Source: Burkholderiales bacterium 70-64 | Lineage (GTDB): Bacteria > Pseudomonadota > Gammaproteobacteria > Burkholderiales > Burkholderiaceae_E | Assembly: GCA_001898645.1 (NCBI GenBank) | Contig: MKUQ01000012.1 | Coordinates: forward strand, 1-64,000 | Length of the DNA: 64,000 nt | Direction of reading: 5' to 3' | In this document: piece by piece, positions 31,288 through 52,514 of the stretch | Layout: each line of letters begins with the position of its first letter | Position numbering within the stretch: the first letter of the stretch is position 1 | Program-made: the position numbers and the translations under genes | The notes under the pieces: model-generated | Told to the model about the DNA's origin: nothing | The model's database searches: none | Seen by the model: only the letters and a program-made list of their open reading frames with translations

Positions 31288-34200
31288 ATGAAGCGAATGC
31301 TGTTCAACGCCACGCACGCCGAAGAGCTGCGCGTGGCCATCGTCGATGGCCAGAAGCTGATCGACATCGACATCGAATCGGCGGGACGCGAATCCCGCAA
31401 GAGCAACATCTACAAAGGGGTGATCACCCGCGTCGAGCCCAGCCTCGAAGCCTGCTTCGTCAACTACGGCGAGGAACGCCACGGCTTCCTGCCGTTCAAG
31501 GAGATCTCGAAGGCGTTCTTCAGGCAGGGCGTCGAAGCCTCGAAGGCACGCATCCAGGACGCGATCGCCGAAGGCCAGGAGGTCATCGTCCAGGTCGACA
31601 AGGAGGAACGCGGCAACAAGGGCGCCGCGCTCACCACCTATATCTCGCTGGCCGGGCGCTACCTGGTGCTGATGCCGAACAACCCGCGCGGCGGCGGCGT
31701 GTCGCGCCGCGTAGAGGGCGAAGACCGCCAGGAGCTGCGCGAAACCATGGACAAGCTCGAGTACCCCTCGGGCATGAGCCTGATCGCGCGCACCGCCGGC
31801 ATCGGACGCGCCGCCGAGGAGCTGCAGTGGGACCTGAACTACCTGCTGCAGCTGTGGAAGGCGATCGAGGCGGCCGCCGGCTCGGCGCCCGGCCCGTTCC
31901 TCATCTACCAGGAATCGAGCCTGGTGATCCGCGCCATTCGCGACTATTTCACCGCAGATGTCGGCGAGATCCTGATCGATACCGACGACATCTATGAGCA
32001 GGCGCGCCAGTTCATGGCGCACGTGATGCCCGACACGGTCGACCGGGTCAAGCGCTATCGCGACGACACGCCGCTGTTCTCGCGCTTCCAGATCGAGCAC
32101 CAGATCGAGACCGCGTACTCGCGCATCGTGCCGCTGCCCTCGGGCGGGGCGGTGGTCATCGACCACACCGAGGCGCTGGTGGCGATCGACGTGAACTCGG
32201 CGCGCGCCACCAAGGGCTCCGACATCGAGGAGACGGCGCTGCGCACCAACCTGGAGGCGGCCGACGAGGCCGCGCGCCAGATGCGCCTGCGCGATCTGGG
32301 CGGGCTGATCGTGATCGACTTCATCGACATGGAGAACGCCCGCAACCAGCGCGAAGTGGAGCAGCGGCTCAAGGACGCGCTGCATTACGACCGCGCGCGC
32401 GTGCAGACCGGCAAGATCTCGCGCTTCGGCCTGATGGAGCTGTCGCGCCAGCGGCTGCGCCCGGCGCTCAACGAGGGCACCCACATCACCTGCCCGCGCT
32501 GCAACGGCACCGGCGTCATCCGCGACACCGAATCGTCGGCCCTGCACGTGCTGCGGGTGATCCAGGAAGAGGCGATGAAGGAGAACACCGCGGCGGTCTA
32601 CGCCCAGGTGCCGGTCGACGTCGCGACCTACCTCCTGAACGAGAAGCGCAGCGAGCTGAACAAGCTCGAGGCGAGGCTGCGGGTCGAGATCGTGCTGATC
32701 CCCAACAAGTACCTCGAGACCCCGCACTACAAGGCCGAGCGGCTGCGTCACGACGACGAGCGCCTGCTCAGCTATCGCGCCACCCACACGATGGTCGAGG
32801 AGCCCGCAGAGGACAACTCCTATCTCGAAGCCAAGCTCGAGGCCGCCAAGCCGCGCCAGGAAGCGCTGGTGCGCGGCATCACTCCCGATCAGCCGCCGCC
32901 GGTGCCGGTCGCACCAACCGCGCCGGCAGCGCCGGCTGCCGTGCCCGAGGCGACGCGCGTTCCGGCGATGGCAGCCGCGGCGAACGGGCACGAAGGATGG
33001 CTGGGGCGCATCCTGGGATGGCTGCGCGGCAGCCCGGCCAACGAGGCGAGCGCCACGCCGCCGGCCGTGCCGGCGGCGCGCGAGACGCCTGCCCGGCCGG
33101 CGCGCGGCCCCCACGAGGGTCGTGAGCGCAGCGGGCGTGAGCCGCGCGAGGGCCGCCACGGTCAGGAATCGCGCGGCGGGCGTGGCGAGCGGCGCGGCGA
33201 GAACGGCGAAGGCGGGGAAGCCCGCGCCGGACGCGACGGCCGGGATGGCCGGCGCGAACGCGGCCAGGAGCGGCGCGAATCACGTGACGGCCAGGGCCGC
33301 GACCGCCGCGCCGAGCGCGATGCGCAGGCGCGCGACGGCCAGCGCGAAGGTGCGCGCGAGGAGCTGCGCGAAGGATCGCGCGGCGCGGCGCGCGAGGACG
33401 CCGGACGGGGCGAGCGTGGTGAACGCGGTCCGCGCGAGGATCGGCGCGGCGGGCGCAGCCGCACGCGCGGCGGTCGCGGCGGCGACGAAGCGCCGGTCGC
33501 GGGCGAGCGCGAAGCGCCGGTGACGCAGGCGGCGACGGCTCCCGACGGCGGCGATGCCGGCGTGCCCGCCCCGCGTGCGGGCGCGTCCGCCGAGGCCATC
33601 ACGATCGTCGCGGCCGCACCGGGAGTGGCCGGCGGCGCGGCATCGTCCGCTGCCGTGAACGGCGCCGCCGCGCACGAGGGCGAGGATCACCGGCCCGGCG
33701 CCGACGCGGCCGAGGGCGAGGAGGCGCGCCGCGGGCGCAGCCGCCGTCGCCGCGGCCGCCGCGGCGGGGAGCGCGAAGGCCACGGCGCGGCCGAGCGAGA
33801 GGCAGCGCAGGTTGCCGACTCGGCACAGGGAGCGGACGAGTCGGCGCGAGAAGCAGCCGATTCGGCACGAGAGGCAGCCGACTCGGCGACGAGCGGTCCG
33901 GCCCGGGAGACCCGCTCGGCAGCCGCCGGCGAACCCGGCGCTGGCCCGCAGCGTGCCGAAGAAGCGGCGGTAGCCGAGCAGGAGGCCCCCGCCGGCACAG
34001 CGGCTCCCACGGCTCAGGTCACCCCTGCCGTCCAGGCGGTCCCTGCCGCCCAGGCTGCACCTGCGGCTCAGGCGGCTTCCGCGGACCAGACAGCTCCCGT
34101 CGCTGCAGCCGCCCAGGCGACGCTCCCGTTCGCCGTCTCGACCGTCCCCACCGGGGCGGTGCACGAGACGGCTGCCGGGGCTGCCGCGGCGGACGAGCTT

Positions 34201-34485
34201 GCCGCCGAGCCCGTGACGACGCCGGTCGCCGGAGCAGCCGCGCAGGCGTCGACGGCAGCGCAGCAGGCCGTACCGGCACCGATCGCTCCCGCACCGGTGC
34301 CCAAGGCCGATCTCGAAGCGATCATTGCGGGCGCGGGCCTGCAATGGGTCGAGACTTCGGCTTCCGCAGTGCCGGAGGAAGCGCCTGCCGAGGTGCCCGC
34401 GCCACGTGTGCCGCGGGTTCGGCGTCCGCGCAGCGCACCGTCGGGCGAACCGCTGCAGCAGGTCGAGACGCGCCACGACGGCTGA
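31288..34485 (+). CDS. rne: Ribonuclease E
   Basis: A 1065-residue endoribonuclease that organises mRNA decay and rRNA/tRNA processing. The catalytic half is well conserved: S1 domain (about residues 37-119), active-site acidic residues D301 ([11 protein letters not shown]) and D344 ([11 protein letters not shown]), and the zinc-link TCPRCNGTG with cysteines at 402 and 405. From about residue 515 the protein is disordered: a long Arg/Gly/Glu-rich stretch (about 590-745) likely binds RNA, followed by Ala/Pro/Gln repeats (AREAADSA repeated; [11 protein letters not shown]) and a short conserved-looking end. Its TGA stop is the first three bases of a 123-bp palindrome. Confidence 0.96.
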
Positions 34486-34605
34486 ACGTGTGAAGGAACC
34501 GTAGCGAGCGGCCCGAGGTCGTGCCGAGGAGCGCAGCCGTACTAGGGTACGGCGAGCACCGCAGGCGCGAGATCGGGCCGCGCAGCAGGTTCCTTCACAC
34601 GTTCA
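34483..34605. repeat. 123-bp palindromic element, copy A, between rne and fdh gamma
   Basis: A perfect 18-bp inverted repeat (34483-34500 with 34588-34605) encloses a second stem GCGGCCCGA/TCGGGCCGC and a central hairpin CCGTAC-TAGG-GTACGG. The left arm starts with the rne TGA; the right arm starts, on the minus strand, with the formate dehydrogenase gamma TGA, so both stop codons are inside the repeat. Copy B at 48870-48992 has the same length and differs at about 13 positions. It could act as a terminator for both strands. Confidence 0.85.
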
Positions 34606-35670
34606 GGCGCGCGGCCGTGCGTCGCCCACCGCCGGGCCGGGGGCCGAGCGCTGCGCCGGAATCCGGCCCGCCTTGATGTCCTCGTACCAGTACTCGTGGT
34701 GCTCGCGGGCCCAGGTCTCGTCGACGTAGCCCTCTTTCATCGCATCGAGGGCGCCCTGCATGCCGATGGTGCCGATGTAGATGTGGCCCATGATCACCGC
34801 GATGAACAGCAGGGCGGCGGTCACGTGGATCACCCATGCACCCTGCATCTGCACGCGCGTCTGCCCGTAGTTCGGGAAGTCGAGGATGAAGCCGGTGACC
34901 GTGGCGATGACGCCGAGCAACACCAGCGCGCCCCAGAACACCAGCTTCTCGCCGCCGTTGAAGCGGTGGCTCGGCACCTCCGCACCCCGGCGCGACAGCA
35001 TCCCCCCTGCCTTGGCGAGCCAGCGCAGATCGTAGGCGCGCGGCAGGTTGTCCTTCACGAAGATCAGGAACATCGCGATGGTGGTCGCCGCGAACAGCGG
35101 ACCGACGAAGTTGTGCGTGGTCTTCGACACGATGGCGAGGATCGAGAACAGCGTATAGCCGAACAGCGGCAGCAGCATGTACTTGCCGAACAGCATCACG
35201 ATGCCGGTGAGCGCCAGCACCACGAAGCACGCCGCGTTCAGCCAATGCGTGGCGCGCTCGACGAGCGTGAAGCGCTCGATCAGCCGGCCGGTGGGCGCTC
35301 CCTTGAGGCGGATCTCGCCCCGGAACAGGTAGAACGCGGCGATGGCGAGCAGCACCGCCACCAGCCACCAGCCGCCGTACATCGTCACCGGCCCGTTGCG
35401 CAGCAGCCGCCAGTCCTGGCCGGCCGAATTGATGAGATTGCCTCCTTCGTGCTCCGGCAGGTTGGTCACGCCGAGCGAGGGCGAGTTCACCGCACGCCAC
35501 ACCGGCGCGTTGTTCAGCGGCTGCACGAGCTGGCGGGCGGCCTGGTCGTTGCGCGACGCGCTCAGATCGACCGGGGGCGCTTGCGTCGCGGGCGCACCCT
35601 GGGGTTGCGCCGTGGCGACCGACGCCCACAGCCCGAGGAGCAGCGCCAGCGTCTGCATGGCGCGTTTCAT
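34603..35670 (-). CDS. Formate dehydrogenase gamma subunit (cytochrome b556)
   Basis: A 355-residue membrane subunit that passes electrons from formate dehydrogenase to quinone through heme b. It has an N-terminal signal peptide (about 1-22, ending VATAQ), a periplasmic stretch of about 80 residues, one transmembrane helix at about 100-120, then a four-helix FdnI-like core (LVERATHWLNAACFVVLALTG; SKTTHNFVGPLFAATTIAMFLIF; VFWGALVLLGVIATVTGFI; VTAALLFIAVIMGHIYIG) with histidines placed for heme ligation. It follows the small lipoprotein gene with a one-base overlap. Confidence 0.9.
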   Translation of the reverse strand: MKRAMQTLALLLGLWASVATAQPQGAPATQAPPVDLSASRNDQAARQLVQPLNNAPVWRAVNSPSLGVTNLPEHEGGNLINSAGQDWRLLRNGPVTMYGGWWLVAVLLAIAAFYLFRGEIRLKGAPTGRLIERFTLVERATHWLNAACFVVLALTGIVMLFGKYMLLPLFGYTLFSILAIVSKTTHNFVGPLFAATTIAMFLIFVKDNLPRAYDLRWLAKAGGMLSRRGAEVPSHRFNGGEKLVFWGALVLLGVIATVTGFILDFPNYGQTRVQMQGAWVIHVTAALLFIAVIMGHIYIGTIGMQGALDAMKEGYVDETWAREHHEYWYEDIKAGRIPAQRSAPGPAVGDARPRA

Positions 35671-48254: not shown

Positions 48255-48324
48255 ACGGCGCGCGGTAGGGTCACCGTTGTGCGAAGATCGCGCTCCCGAG
48301 CACTCTTCGCAGGAATCCGCACCG

Positions 48325-48843
48325 ATGTCGCAGCCCACCGATCCGACCAGCTTCGCCACCACCGACCTGTGCGATGCGCACGAAGCGCGGCTCGCCGCGG
48401 GCGAGCTGCGCGTGCTGCACCCGGCCTTCCGCGCCTTCGGCCGGCGCATCCGCTTCGCCGGCCCGGTGTCCACCGTACGCTGCTTCGAGGACAACACGCT
48501 GGTGCGCACCACGTTGGAGGAGCCGGGCGAAGGACGCGTGCTGGTGGTCGACGGCGGCGGCAGCCTGCGCTGCGCGCTGGTCGGGGGCAATCTCGCGCAG
48601 CTGGCGCAGCGCAACGGCTGGGCCGGGGTGGTGGTCAACGGCTGCGTGCGCGATGTGGCCGAGATCAACGCCTGCGAGATCGGCGTATGGGCGCTGGCCA
48701 CCCATCCGCGGCGCAGCGACAAGCGCGGCGGCGGCGCGCGCGGACAGACGGTGGAGATCGGCGGGGTGCGCATCGCCCCCGGCAACTGGTGCTATGCCGA
48801 CGACGACGGCATCCTGATCAGCGACGAGCGATTGAGGGTCTAG
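48325..48843 (+). CDS. rraA: RraA-family protein (regulator of RNase E / HMG aldolase family)
   Basis: A 172-residue protein beginning [12 protein letters not shown], the RraA-family start, with [56 protein letters not shown] and [12 protein letters not shown]. coli RraA inhibits RNase E, and the family also includes 4-hydroxy-4-methyl-2-oxoglutarate aldolases; the [13 protein letters not shown] and RD segments fit both. The start at 48325 matches the family length. It is convergent with pilY1; a 123-bp palindrome follows 27 bp later. Confidence 0.88.
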
Positions 48844-48869: not shown

Positions 48870-48992
48870 GGAACGTGTGAAGGAATCGTAGCGAGCGGTC
48901 CGAGGTCGCGTCGAGAAGCGCAGCCGTACTGGGGTACGGCGAGCATCGCAGGCGCGAGATCGGACCGCGCAGTAGATTCATTCACGCGTTCA
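48870..48992. repeat. 123-bp palindromic element, copy B, between rraA and pilY1
   Basis: The outer arms GAACGTGTGAAGGAATC (48871-48887) and GATTCATTCACGCGTTC (48975-48991) pair with two mismatches. The inner stem is GCGGTCCGA/TCGGACCGC and the core hairpin CCGTAC-TGGG-GTACGG. Compared with copy A, the inner stem has C-to-T on the left with a matching G-to-A on the right, and the arm base pair AACC/GGTT becomes AATC/GATT, so pairing is kept. The minus-strand TGA of pilY1 lies at the right edge. Confidence 0.85.
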
Positions 48993-51900
48993 GTCCCGAA
49001 CGACCTCCCGCCACATGATGCGCGTCGCAGTGGTCGCCGAGGGCACGGAGACGTCGATCACCCGCGTCTTGTTGTCCGAGGTGCGGATGATGGTCTTGGT
49101 GACCCCGCTGGCCAGCACGATCAACTGCGGCCGGCTCGACAGCACCGGCCCGATGTAGCGGCTGGTGAGGTTGGGAATCGCCCCGCCGGTGGCGTAGTTG
49201 AGGAAGTACAGGTTGGAGCTGCCACCCGGCATGCAGGGATCGTTCGACGGCGTGTTCGAGGTAAAGGCGAGGATCCCCTGGCTGAGCACCGCGTTGGTGT
49301 ACGAGCGCTCGCCGCTGGTGGCCGATGCGAAGTCGAGCACCCAGCCCTTCTTGACCGCCAGGTCGACCGGGTTGGTCGTGATGTTGATGTTGTTGCCTGC
49401 CACCACCGGCGTCTGCGCCACCAGTTGCGAGCGCAGCGGCGTGATGGTCGGCGCGGCCGAGAGATCGTCGAGCAGGCCGTAGAACGACTGGCGCTGCGTC
49501 GCCGAAGGCTTGGCGCCGGCCGAGCCGGGAATGTCCGTCGTGCCGAGGTACTGGCCGGTGCCCACGAACACCAGGCGCTTGCCGTTGACCACGCCGAGAT
49601 CGGGCGCCGAGGTGATCGGCTGGGCCGTGCCGCTGTCCTTGTCGACCAGGGTGGCCAGCAGCTTCACGTTCCAGTTGGCTATCGACGGATCGGAGAGATC
49701 GAAGCGCCACAGGTTGCCGAGCAGGTCGCCGCCGTAGACGGCCTCCGCCGTATCGTCGATGCCCGGGCGCGTCACGAACGCGCTGATCTTGGCCAGCCCG
49801 CTCGGCGCAGTGCTGCTGCCCTGGCCGGTGCCGAGATCCTTGAGCAAGGCCCCGGTGCGCACGTCGAGCACGTACAGGTGCCCCAGGCCGTCGCCGCCGG
49901 TGTCGGCGCCGTTGTTGTAGCCCGAGGTCACCAGCGCGACCCAGCCGGCCGCACGCGTCTTCACCAGCACCGGCGTGCCGTAGCTGTAGCCGACGTTGTT
50001 GCGCACGGCCGCCGGCGTGGCGGCATTGGGGAACTCCCACATCACCTTCCCAGCGACCTGCGCGTCGGAGGTCGCCGCGGGGTCGGTGATGTTCAGGGCA
50101 TAGAAGCCGCGCCCGCCCTTGCCGAGGCTGCCCACCAGCACGGTGGCCCAGTCGGGCGCGGGCGGCGTCGGCTGGTAGGCCGAGGTGTTGCTGAGGTCGA
50201 CATCGCCCGAGATCGGCGTGCCGTTCGTGTAATAGCGATGCTGGTAGTACAGCGGCTGCTGGGTCAGGCCTACCAGCGCACTGGTCGAGGTCTGCGTCGA
50301 CGACAGGTTCATGTCGATGAGCAGGCCCGGCACGTAGCCCCACAGCTCGCCGCCGGTGGCGGCGTCGAAGGCGTGCAGCATGCCGTCGTTGGCGCCCTGG
50401 TAGACGATCTTGGCACGGGTGGCGGCCGCGCCCGCCTTGAAGGCCGCGTAGCCGTTGTCGGTATAGCCGCCGCGCGGCGGCGTCACGTAGACCGCCTCGG
50501 CATCCACGATGTCGCCCAGCACGTGCACGCGCTTGCGGTACGGCCGGGTCGCGTCGCTGCCGTCGCCCTCCTTCGAGCGATCGCCGCGCAGGTAGTCGAC
50601 CACGGCCGCGTTGTCGGCCGGCCCCGGCGGAGTGATCGGGGAATTCAGGCGCGCCAGCTGGGCGCTGGAGAGGCCGCCCGCGCCGGCCGAGAAGGCCACC
50701 CCGCTGCTTCCCGAGAACGAACCGATGGCGCGCTGGGCGAAGGGCTTGGCGTCGAGCAGGGTCTGCGCCGACCATAGCGGTGTGGTGCCGAGCTGTCCGG
50801 TCGTGACGTCGATGGCGAACGCCTCCAGGTCGCCGTACCAGGCGCCCGAGTTGTAGTTGGAGGCGAACGCGGTGTTGTCGCCCGAACGCACGTTCGGGTT
50901 GCTCACCGCCACGGCCGCGGCCGCGGCAGTACGGTTGAGGATGTCGTTCAGGATCGCCGCCAGCGCGTTCTGCAGCACCAGCGGATCACCGGTGTTGAAG
51001 TACTGCCCGTGGCCGTTGAGCGCCGCATGCCAGAGGTCGTCGATCGCCGTGGCGGTATCGGCCACCGGCTTCGGCCAGCCCGTCGTTCCGGTGGGCGGGC
51101 TCGACAGCGTGCCGCTCGCGCCCAGGCCGATGGTGTAGGTCGTCATGTGCTGCCAGGTGGCCGGATCGAACCTGTTCGCGGTCACCTTGCCGGCCGAGTT
51201 CGGCCGCAGGTCGGTGATCCAGTACTTCATCGCCACGTCGGCCAGCGTATTGGAGAAGCTCGTACCGCCCTCGTAGAAGGGCGCCGGGAACAACTGCCCC
51301 GCCACCAGGGGCGCGCCGGCGTACGGATCGTTCACGGGTCCCCCCGAGTCCGGATCGGTATAGACCGGCGCGGGCAGTGTCGGCACCTTCTGGTCGTAGT
51401 TGCCGGCCGACGGATTGGTGCCGTTCCAGTAGCCGTCGGTCGACAGGATGGTGTAGTTCGGCGTGCAGGCGAGCACCACCGGATCGTTCTTGGTCACGCC
51501 TTCCATCTTGCCGTTCTGGTAGTACTTGCCGGCGCGATCGAGGGCGGCGACCAGCGGAGTGCCGCCGCCGGGGCTGATCGCATAGAGCTTGGCGTACCAG
51601 GTCTTCTTCTGCGCCTTGTCGAAGTCCGACAGCGGCACGAAGTTCGCCGCGCTGGTGTTGGCGTTGTTGTTGTTGTCGTTGATGGTGGCGAAACCGACGC
51701 GCGACTTGTCGGTGAGCACCGAGAAGGCCAGGCCCAGGGTGGTCTTGGCGGTCTGGATGCGGGTCCGGTAATAGGAGAACCAGTTGGCGAAGTTCTGGAT
51801 CTCCTCGTTGTAGGTGCAGGTGGTGCTGCCGGCGCAGTCGGTGCGGCTGGCCGCCTTCGAATAGGAAGGCGTCGTGGACAGGATCTCCACCCGGTTGTAG

Positions 51901-52514
51901 TTGCTGTCGGAGTCCTGGCCGGAGCTCCCGTCCTCGGTCCCGCTGCCCTTCCAGACGTAATAGAAGGCGTAACGTGCGTACCTGGTCTTCTTGGTTGAGG
52001 TGCTGTTGTCCACGCAGTTGCCGTTGGTGGCAAAACTCGTGGAGCTGTACCGCGGCAGGGACGGCGGGGTGGTGGTTTCCCAGCACACCTTGGTCAGGTC
52101 GACGCTCCCGGTGGTCCCGCCAGTGGTCGGATACGGGTCGATGCGCGCACTCGCGGTCGGGCTGTTGCCCATCGACGAGGTGAAGCTCGCGCTGGCGCCG
52201 TCGTAGTCGACCGCCGGCACGTAGGTGATCTCGGGGTTGTAGTACAGCTTGTTGAAGGTGGGCGAATAGAACGCGCGCCGGCTCTTGCCGCTGTTGTACT
52301 CGGCCGTCGCATCGGTGCCGGTGATGGTTTCCCATTCCATGCTCCCCGAGTTGTCGAGCATGAACAGGATGTTCGGCTTGGCCCCGGTCTGCACTGCCAG
52401 CGGCACGTCGGTGAGATCGGTCGCGGCAGCCAGCGCCGCGAGCGGCTGAAGGATCTGCGCCGCGACGACGGTCGCGGCGAGGGTCCGGGTGCGGAGGCGG
52501 CGGGTCGGTTGCAT
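48990..52514 (-). CDS. pilY1: Type IV pilus tip adhesin/assembly protein PilY1
   Basis: A 1174-residue secreted protein with an N-terminal signal (about 1-30), a von Willebrand A domain with an intact MIDAS (DNSGSM at D54-M59), and a C-terminal seven-bladed propeller-like region (about 660-1050) with segments such as NDGMLHAFDAATGGELWGYVP, GGDLLGNLWRFDLS and HLYVLDVRTGALL. PilY1 proteins sit on the pilus tip, control retraction and surface sensing, and bind calcium. It is the last gene of the minor-pilin operon, 15 bp after pilX. Confidence 0.93.
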   Translation of the reverse strand: MQPTRRLRTRTLAATVVAAQILQPLAALAAATDLTDVPLAVQTGAKPNILFMLDNSGSMEWETITGTDATAEYNSGKSRRAFYSPTFNKLYYNPEITYVPAVDYDGASASFTSSMGNSPTASARIDPYPTTGGTTGSVDLTKVCWETTTPPSLPRYSSTSFATNGNCVDNSTSTKKTRYARYAFYYVWKGSGTEDGSSGQDSDSNYNRVEILSTTPSYSKAASRTDCAGSTTCTYNEEIQNFANWFSYYRTRIQTAKTTLGLAFSVLTDKSRVGFATINDNNNNANTSAANFVPLSDFDKAQKKTWYAKLYAISPGGGTPLVAALDRAGKYYQNGKMEGVTKNDPVVLACTPNYTILSTDGYWNGTNPSAGNYDQKVPTLPAPVYTDPDSGGPVNDPYAGAPLVAGQLFPAPFYEGGTSFSNTLADVAMKYWITDLRPNSAGKVTANRFDPATWQHMTTYTIGLGASGTLSSPPTGTTGWPKPVADTATAIDDLWHAALNGHGQYFNTGDPLVLQNALAAILNDILNRTAAAAAVAVSNPNVRSGDNTAFASNYNSGAWYGDLEAFAIDVTTGQLGTTPLWSAQTLLDAKPFAQRAIGSFSGSSGVAFSAGAGGLSSAQLARLNSPITPPGPADNAAVVDYLRGDRSKEGDGSDATRPYRKRVHVLGDIVDAEAVYVTPPRGGYTDNGYAAFKAGAAATRAKIVYQGANDGMLHAFDAATGGELWGYVPGLLIDMNLSSTQTSTSALVGLTQQPLYYQHRYYTNGTPISGDVDLSNTSAYQPTPPAPDWATVLVGSLGKGGRGFYALNITDPAATSDAQVAGKVMWEFPNAATPAAVRNNVGYSYGTPVLVKTRAAGWVALVTSGYNNGADTGGDGLGHLYVLDVRTGALLKDLGTGQGSSTAPSGLAKISAFVTRPGIDDTAEAVYGGDLLGNLWRFDLSDPSIANWNVKLLATLVDKDSGTAQPITSAPDLGVVNGKRLVFVGTGQYLGTTDIPGSAGAKPSATQRQSFYGLLDDLSAAPTITPLRSQLVAQTPVVAGNNINITTNPVDLAVKKGWVLDFASATSGERSYTNAVLSQGILAFTSNTPSNDPCMPGGSSNLYFLNYATGGAIPNLTSRYIGPVLSSRPQLIVLASGVTKTIIRTSDNKTRVIDVSVPSATTATRIMWREVVRD

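Follow-up and report, generated by a model that had tools for sequence, protein, structure and literature searches.

Two copies of a palindromic element in the window

The window, by which we mean the whole 64,000-nucleotide stretch of DNA that was analyzed, contains two copies of a long palindromic element, both 123 nt in length. Copy A is located between two convergent genes, an rne-like gene (RNase E/G) and a cytochrome b561-type gene, both of which terminate within the element; the latter adjoins Fer4 and molybdopterin-oxidoreductase genes. Copy B, in the same orientation, is flanked by two ORFs that resemble known genes by eye only. The genes and elements are as follows.

31288..34485, plus strand: rne-like gene (RNase E/G), ending in a TGA stop (34483-34485) that overlaps copy A at its left end
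34483..34605, plus strand: element copy A, with a 121-nt core at 34484-34604; the plus strand is the folding strand, with GTAGCGAGC first
34603..35670, minus strand: cytochrome b561-type gene, from the scanned stretch and with an approximate start; its stop (34603-34605) overlaps the right end of copy A
48277..48843, plus strand: ORF, RraA-like by eye only, with its stop 27 nt ahead of the 121-nt core of copy B
48870..48992, plus strand: element copy B, oriented as copy A
48990..52514, minus strand: 1174-aa ORF that resembles PilY1 by eye only; the right end of copy B overlaps its stop (48990-48992)

The two copies adjoin genes for RNase E and (by eye only) its regulator, a pairing that is probably due to chance.

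Folded as RNA, copy A reaches -89.7 kcal/mol (z -13.1) and copy B -74.8 kcal/mol (z -9.3), and in neither case did any of 200 dinucleotide shuffles fold as well. The same is seen with both strands of the two copies, which fold far better than 200 dinucleotide shuffles both as RNA and as DNA. The internal loops and the terminal hairpin of copy A are located as follows.

34505..34508, plus strand: outer internal loop, 5' side CGAG, opposite CGCAG at 34581-34585
34581..34585, plus strand: outer internal loop, 3' side CGCAG, from the sequence
34525..34528, plus strand: middle internal loop, 5' side CGAG, opposite CGCAG at 34560-34564
34560..34564, plus strand: middle internal loop, 3' side CGCAG, from the sequence
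34532..34536, plus strand: inner internal loop, 5' side CGCAG, opposite CGAG at 34553-34556; the same motif in reversed orientation
34553..34556, plus strand: inner internal loop, 3' side CGAG, from the sequence
34536..34553, plus strand: terminal hairpin GCCGTAC-TAGG-GTACGGC, from sequence and fold

An earlier reading of this DNA, made without database searches (hereafter, the sequence-only reading), had described two copies of equal length with about 13 differences, each with an outer stem, an inner 9-bp stem, and a central GTAC hairpin. The copies indeed differ at 13 of 123 positions and all these parts are present, together with the internal loops, which that reading did not mention. Nine pairs of the fold of A differ in B: three are two-sided changes that keep Watson-Crick pairing, four are G-T interchanges on the plus strand (34489/34599, 34504/34586, 34522/34567, and 34524/34565), and two are broken (34483/34605 and 34495/34593), with no A-C pair among the differences when pairs are taken from the fold of A. 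The two-sided changes from A to B comprise the two sites already proposed to covary (34499/34589 and 34512/34577, both CG to TA) and a third one, 34529/34559 (GC to AT). The description of the element as palindromic, covarying, and larger than a normal terminator was thus borne out.

Family size and distribution

The covariance model search that the sequence-only reading had proposed, run with a model built on 125 copies, gave 45 matches in this genome (G000; an assembly of 4.72 Mb in 63 contigs, 98.28% complete). These correspond to 44 places, with one locus (L026) matched on both strands, and the weakest of the 44 may belong to the sister (second) palindrome described below. A BLASTN search of the same genome yielded 70 matches; many of these are second hits to one palindrome, read in reverse. 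We took 40 loci of G000, and the 29 with copies of exactly 121 bp provided the majority sequence.

At least one covariance model match was found in 22 of 41 genomes. The 17 congeners have 0 to 24 matches each, versus the 44 places of G000, and in the congener with 24 (G004), the 12 matches that were read were all a related palindrome nested in another element. In named genomes, the core pattern was found in at least 119 stretches, 80 of them with a title. Among these titled matches listed, nearly all belong to the Burkholderiales (in the wide sense, by name), including Massilia, Herbaspirillum, Janthinobacterium, Ralstonia, Zoogloea, Thauera, Rubrivivax, Variovorax, Chromobacterium, and others, and one belongs to Solimonas. 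With a slightly looser exact pattern, 13 of 250 genomes matched in an evenly drawn sample of the order, and 2 of 397 in an evenly drawn sample of the phylum, namely, G000 and one other genome of the same order; the exact pattern undercounts, as it finds 21 matches in G000 versus 44 by the covariance model. As the other carriers of the order sample had only 1 to 5 matches each, versus these 21, the expansion of the element in G000 is unusual. One copy is common to L066 (in G006) and L082 (titled Lautropia).

Copy A had no match in 72,556 plasmid records or in 50,697 phage records (blastn, E 1e-5), nor did the exact core pattern match viral contigs. In the Rfam scan, nothing in the 64-kb window matched; with permissive settings, copy A had a single hit, to mir-2830, with an E value of 0.28 and far under the gathering score. 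We found no description of the family in the openly available literature that was searched, so the view of the sequence-only reading that no named family fits still stands.

Some copies depart from the usual arrangement. Closely spaced copies, each with its own complementary arms, occur at L051 (G021), where there are three at a spacing of about 124 bp, and at L052 (G020). L037 to L040, L264, and L265 are short forms (62 to 72 nt in L037 to L040) in which the inner part is deleted, while both ends and the abutment to the stop codon are kept. L113, L149, L170, and L181 contain an additional GC-rich insert within a stem.

Conserved core and variable arms

The core pattern yielded 154 copies, which were reduced to 133 at 93% identity; 8 of these had local inserts and were left out, leaving 125 aligned copies. 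The conserved core reads GT(A/C)GCGAGC ... GAG-AAGCGCAGC-NGTAC-loop-GTACN-GCGAGCAYCGCAG ... GCGCAG(T/C)AG, and in its fold an internal loop with C-GA-G facing C-GCA-G occurs three times, the innermost in reversed orientation. The outer loop, which lay outside the search pattern, is intact in 111 of 125 copies. The inner loop is intact in all 125 and the middle one has GAG/CGCAG in 114 (the full CGAG/CGCAG in 93), figures to be read knowing that the search pattern itself covered the inner loop as well as the middle one on its 3' side. All three loops are found together in 102 copies.

The sequence of the outer arm is not fixed. All four Watson-Crick types occur among the copies at 13 of the 15 pairs predicted for it, and the arms differ in sequence between lineages while remaining self-complementary. 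The covariation is not confined to the two sites seen at first in the window, as two-sided changes were found in 26 of 38 predicted pairs in the 125 copies. In three loci, L026 (in G000), L085, and L128 (both elsewhere), one arm has turned into the exact complement of its partner, asymmetric loop included. This is the outcome expected from template-switch correction of quasipalindromes, and two-sided changes alone are therefore weak evidence for selection. Selection on pairing is supported instead by the strand bias, described below, that favors G-T over A-C pairs. Of the earlier view that selection acts on pairing and not on sequence, the first half gains from this bias and the second half has to be dropped, since the loops and the terminal hairpin are strongly conserved in sequence.

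The folding strand

Changes in the stems were counted by Fitch parsimony on a FastTree tree of the 125 copies. Read on the GTAGCGAGC strand, Watson-Crick pairs changed to G-T pairs 167 times and to A-C pairs 51 times, with a pair list taken mostly from the fold of the plus strand and stems that are Watson-Crick on either strand. The ratio of G-T to A-C events was 65:37 in the outer stem, 33:10 in the next one, and 61:4 and 8:0 in the inner stems. The G000 copies alone show the same lean to a smaller degree (34 one-sided changes to G-T versus 22 to A-C). By dinucleotide-state parsimony, C>T exceeded G>A (107:30) and A>G exceeded T>C (30:12), and an excess of both kinds means that strand-biased deamination alone is not a sufficient cause of the G-T bias. 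The plus strand also has the more stable fold in 114 of 125 copies. By this bias of G-T over A-C, the strand that folds is the antisense one relative to the abutting gene, and the data are compatible with folding as single-stranded DNA and as RNA.

Position at stop codons

The copies were mapped to gene ends, as the sequence-only reading had called for, with a codon-usage gene finder trained on the window. In G000, 38 of 40 copies have a gene of the opposite strand on their right with its stop codon at the right end of the element, L004 and L034 being the exceptions. The gap between stop and border ranges from -14 to +4, with 19 copies at -2 and 9 at 0. With stricter criteria, a stop was found at the right end in 35 of 40 copies and at the left end in 6 of 40, compared to 73 of 8,000 random positions in the same loci. 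In about five copies, the protein runs some three codons into the arm of the element (gap of -10).

The flank on the gene side of the 40 G000 copies carries information above random only at the stop base adjoining the border, and the other flank does so only in the three bases next to the element. At this left end, 18 of the 40 copies have TCA, which might reflect a 3-nt duplication of a TGA stop; L015 and L029, whose stop is TAG, have TCA as well.

For the named genomes, context was tabulated for 112 copies from 111 of the 119 listed loci; the other eight (L069, L080, L115, L123, L138, L145, L157, and L186) were too near a locus end and were skipped. Among these matches listed, the stop lies 30 to 46 nt from the end of the core in 64 of 112 copies, with a mode at 40 nt, which corresponds to the border of the element; here, the border was set by fixed distances from the core. 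The stops at these anchored copies, again among the matches listed, are TGA in 34, TAA in 17, and TAG in 13. Among the titled matches listed, anchored copies make up 29 of 38 outside the Oxalobacteraceae and 17 of 36 within this family, as told apart by locus titles. Also among the matches listed, and with the same gene finder, which is rough for other genera, 27 of the 112 copies have a gene start on their right, 19 lie between convergent genes, and in 55 the genes on the left and at the abutting end are transcribed in parallel. A tRNA-Sec (selC) gene ends 0 to 1 nt from the element in three (L081, L114, and L171) of the six loci scanned for tRNA.

At L223, beside glyA of G017, a different palindrome, with GGGGTCAGACCACGG, starts within a few bases of the glyA stop, so stop adjacency may extend beyond one repeat family.

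Presence and absence in congeners

Homologous loci were obtained from seven congeners for seven of eight host genes (fdx yielded none), and the element was absent from all 30 loci, of which L199 ends at a contig end and L198 and L205 come from one genome. As homologous sites in congeners lack the element, comparison of these sequences indicates that it is probably mobile. For six of the seven genes, the congeners stop at an identical position or a single codon further on (the tails of recA vary), and truncation of genes by random insertion was therefore rejected for the comparable genes.

Some genes (pstB-, ftsZ-, argJ-, and PilT-like, named by eye) are followed by an element in two or more organisms, with arms that have diverged and are still complementary. 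Such recurrence fits an old, kept feature and counts against pure mobility.

Nested palindromes and candidate partners

The two longer copies among the 40 loci of G000, L033 (contig C60) and L035 (contig C25), contain palindromes and not genes. In both of them, a second palindrome (AGGGCCTGTTCA...) is located in the terminal loop of the element, and in L035 there is a third one inside the second. The second palindrome has 43 matches in G000, counting both strands, and the third has four full-length copies there, each within or beside a copy of the second. A composite of both was found nearly unchanged at the 12 loci of G004 that were read (L246 to L257), apparently a recent expansion in this congener. 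The third palindrome and the element have a AAGCGCAGCCGT/ACGGCGAGCAT core in common, which, at the sequence level, makes them look like parts of a hairpin superfamily.

We looked for enzymes that could act as partners of the element. With PF01797 (E <= 0.001), no Y1 transposase was found in G000 (98.28% complete), while 14 of 41 genomes had a match, including the carriers G017 and G031; a further carrier, G011, fell below the cutoff. A Y1/RAYT transposase as resident partner was rejected, as there was no match in G000 or in the carriers G021 and G007. A reverse transcriptase was also discarded, with two in G000 and none in the carriers G002, G007, G011, G017, and G021.

Proposed explanation and alternatives

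Among the readings that we considered, we lean slightly toward an undescribed family of REP/MITE-like nonautonomous mobile elements of about 121 bp, forming a hairpin of one strand and inserted at gene 3' ends. Each element would be an imperfect palindrome acting as the hairpin of one defined strand, opposite the coding strand of the gene, and its insertion would take place nearly always in one orientation and exactly at the 3' end of the gene. By analogy, the folded strand may be handled in trans, as single-stranded DNA, by a putative enzyme recognizing the repeated CGAG/CGCAG loops, broadly as TnpA_REP does with the bulged REP hairpin, and the effects on the neighboring gene would be secondary. 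A REP-like mobile repeat, one of the options of the sequence-only reading, comes nearest to this proposal.

We suggest much more tentatively that the insertion machinery recognizes gene 3' ends themselves, on the basis of copies placed in or right behind stop codons of all three kinds and at tRNA-Sec 3' ends, the gene nearly always facing the folding strand. As the G000 copies have no gene-side sequence in common beyond the stop, the choice of target may depend on the RNA 3' end or on translation termination; no mechanism by which stop codons of every type would be chosen for insertion is known to us.

The main rival, which seems to us rather unlikely, is a structured RNA or 3'-untranslated-region device, in which the hairpin beside the stop acts in the transcript, be it by protection of the mRNA 3' end, as a site for RNase III or RNase E, or by slowing the ribosome at the stop. 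It would agree with the zero distance to stop codons and with the genes that are followed by a copy in two or more organisms, and E. coli REPs within 15 nt of the stop are said to stall ribosomes (PMC12306157, available text). The folding strand would also be the sense strand at the 27 of 112 named copies, among the matches listed, that face a gene start. However, relative to the abutting gene the folding strand is the antisense one, and as the left gene is often parallel to the abutting one (55 of 112, among the matches listed), there is no obvious promoter for it; the uneven copy number among congeners also fits a mobile element better. The bidirectional transcription terminator that the sequence-only reading had offered is the least probable of all the readings, although copy A does have a long, GC-rich stem and lies between convergent genes. 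At this copy, the only one scanned, no terminator-like site (a hairpin followed by a T-run) was found between 34300 and 34800 on either strand; besides, asymmetric loops conserved in sequence are needless for a terminator, and only 19 of 112 named copies, among the matches listed, lie between convergent genes.

The element could also be a member of the GTAG-REP/RAYT group whose transposase has been lost from G000. The GT(A/C)G beside the stem, the bulged stem, the strand preference, the nearness to ORF 3' ends, and the Y1 matches in 14 of 41 genomes (among carriers, G017 and G031, plus G011 below the cutoff) would fit this, yet it appears improbable to us, given an element three to six times longer than a 20- to 40-bp REP, with its GT(A/C)G inside a long stem, and no Y1 match in G000, G021, or G007, all of them carriers. 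Finally, a protein-binding or chromosome-structure site could have its arms kept complementary only by template-switch correction, as the rewritten arms of L026, L085, and L128 would suggest. This correction, though, accounts neither for the bias of G-T over A-C nor for the asymmetric outer loop kept in 111 of 125 copies, and we regard such a site as very unlikely.

In the mobile-element reading that we prefer, the presence or absence of the element between congeners makes insertion directly testable. Palindromic repeats are common, and in this family practically no distance separates the element from the gene end, in one orientation, with every type of stop codon, and across several bacterial groups; with one well-defined family, the choice of gene ends by small palindromic elements becomes testable as well. 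The G-T bias provides a strand-specific folding signature, together with a warning that two-sided changes, usually read as RNA covariation, can have other sources, namely a hairpin of single-stranded DNA or template switching.

Comparison with known systems

One close resemblance is to the REP/BIME sequences of the GTAG superfamily and their TnpA_REP (RAYT), as described in the available text of PMC3733652 and PMC8266576, with which the element has in common an imperfect palindrome, a conserved bulge, a strand-specific hairpin, a GT(A/C)G motif, intergenic copies, and nearness to ORF 3' ends. According to the same available text, the E. coli REP is a bulged single-strand substrate of TnpA_REP (PMC8266576), and REPs tend to lie near ORF ends, within about 20 bp, with GTAG termini that often supply the stop codon (PMC3733652). 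However, the core of the element measures 121 bp (29 full copies) versus 20 to 40 bp in REPs, and whereas GTAG REPs have an unpaired GTAG tag at the end of the hairpin, here GT(A/C)G is in the stem with 15 predicted pairs outside it. Also unlike REPs, the element has CGAG/CGCAG loops, directly adjoins the stop in one orientation, and comes without a Y1 match in G000. These differences, from the length and the position of GT(A/C)G within the stem to the repeated loop, the oriented zero gap, and the missing Y1 match, place the element outside the GTAG REP/RAYT family.

In size, palindromic structure, lack of evident coding capacity, and copy numbers in the tens, the element is similar to bacterial MITEs, and its inverted-repeat structure, multiple copies, and sites empty in relatives are features of MITEs as well. 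Examples of these are ERIC/RU-1 (about 127 bp), Correia, and RUP. Unlike MITEs, it has no known parent insertion sequence, it is located at gene 3' ends, and its arms differ between lineages around a fixed core.

Integron attC sites are imperfect hairpins found directly after the stop, in which the recombining strand is opposite the gene, with conserved ends (the boxes GTTRRRY and RYYYAAC) and a variable middle. The element is likewise a hairpin right after the stop whose folding strand is opposite the gene, but, unlike the attC end boxes, its ends vary between lineages, its middle is conserved, and no cassette array was seen. Last, like the Rickettsia palindromic elements named in PMC3733652, the element consists of long palindromic insertions spread over the genome; in the available text of that source, those of Rickettsia lie inside ORFs, while the copies described here are located at stop codons.
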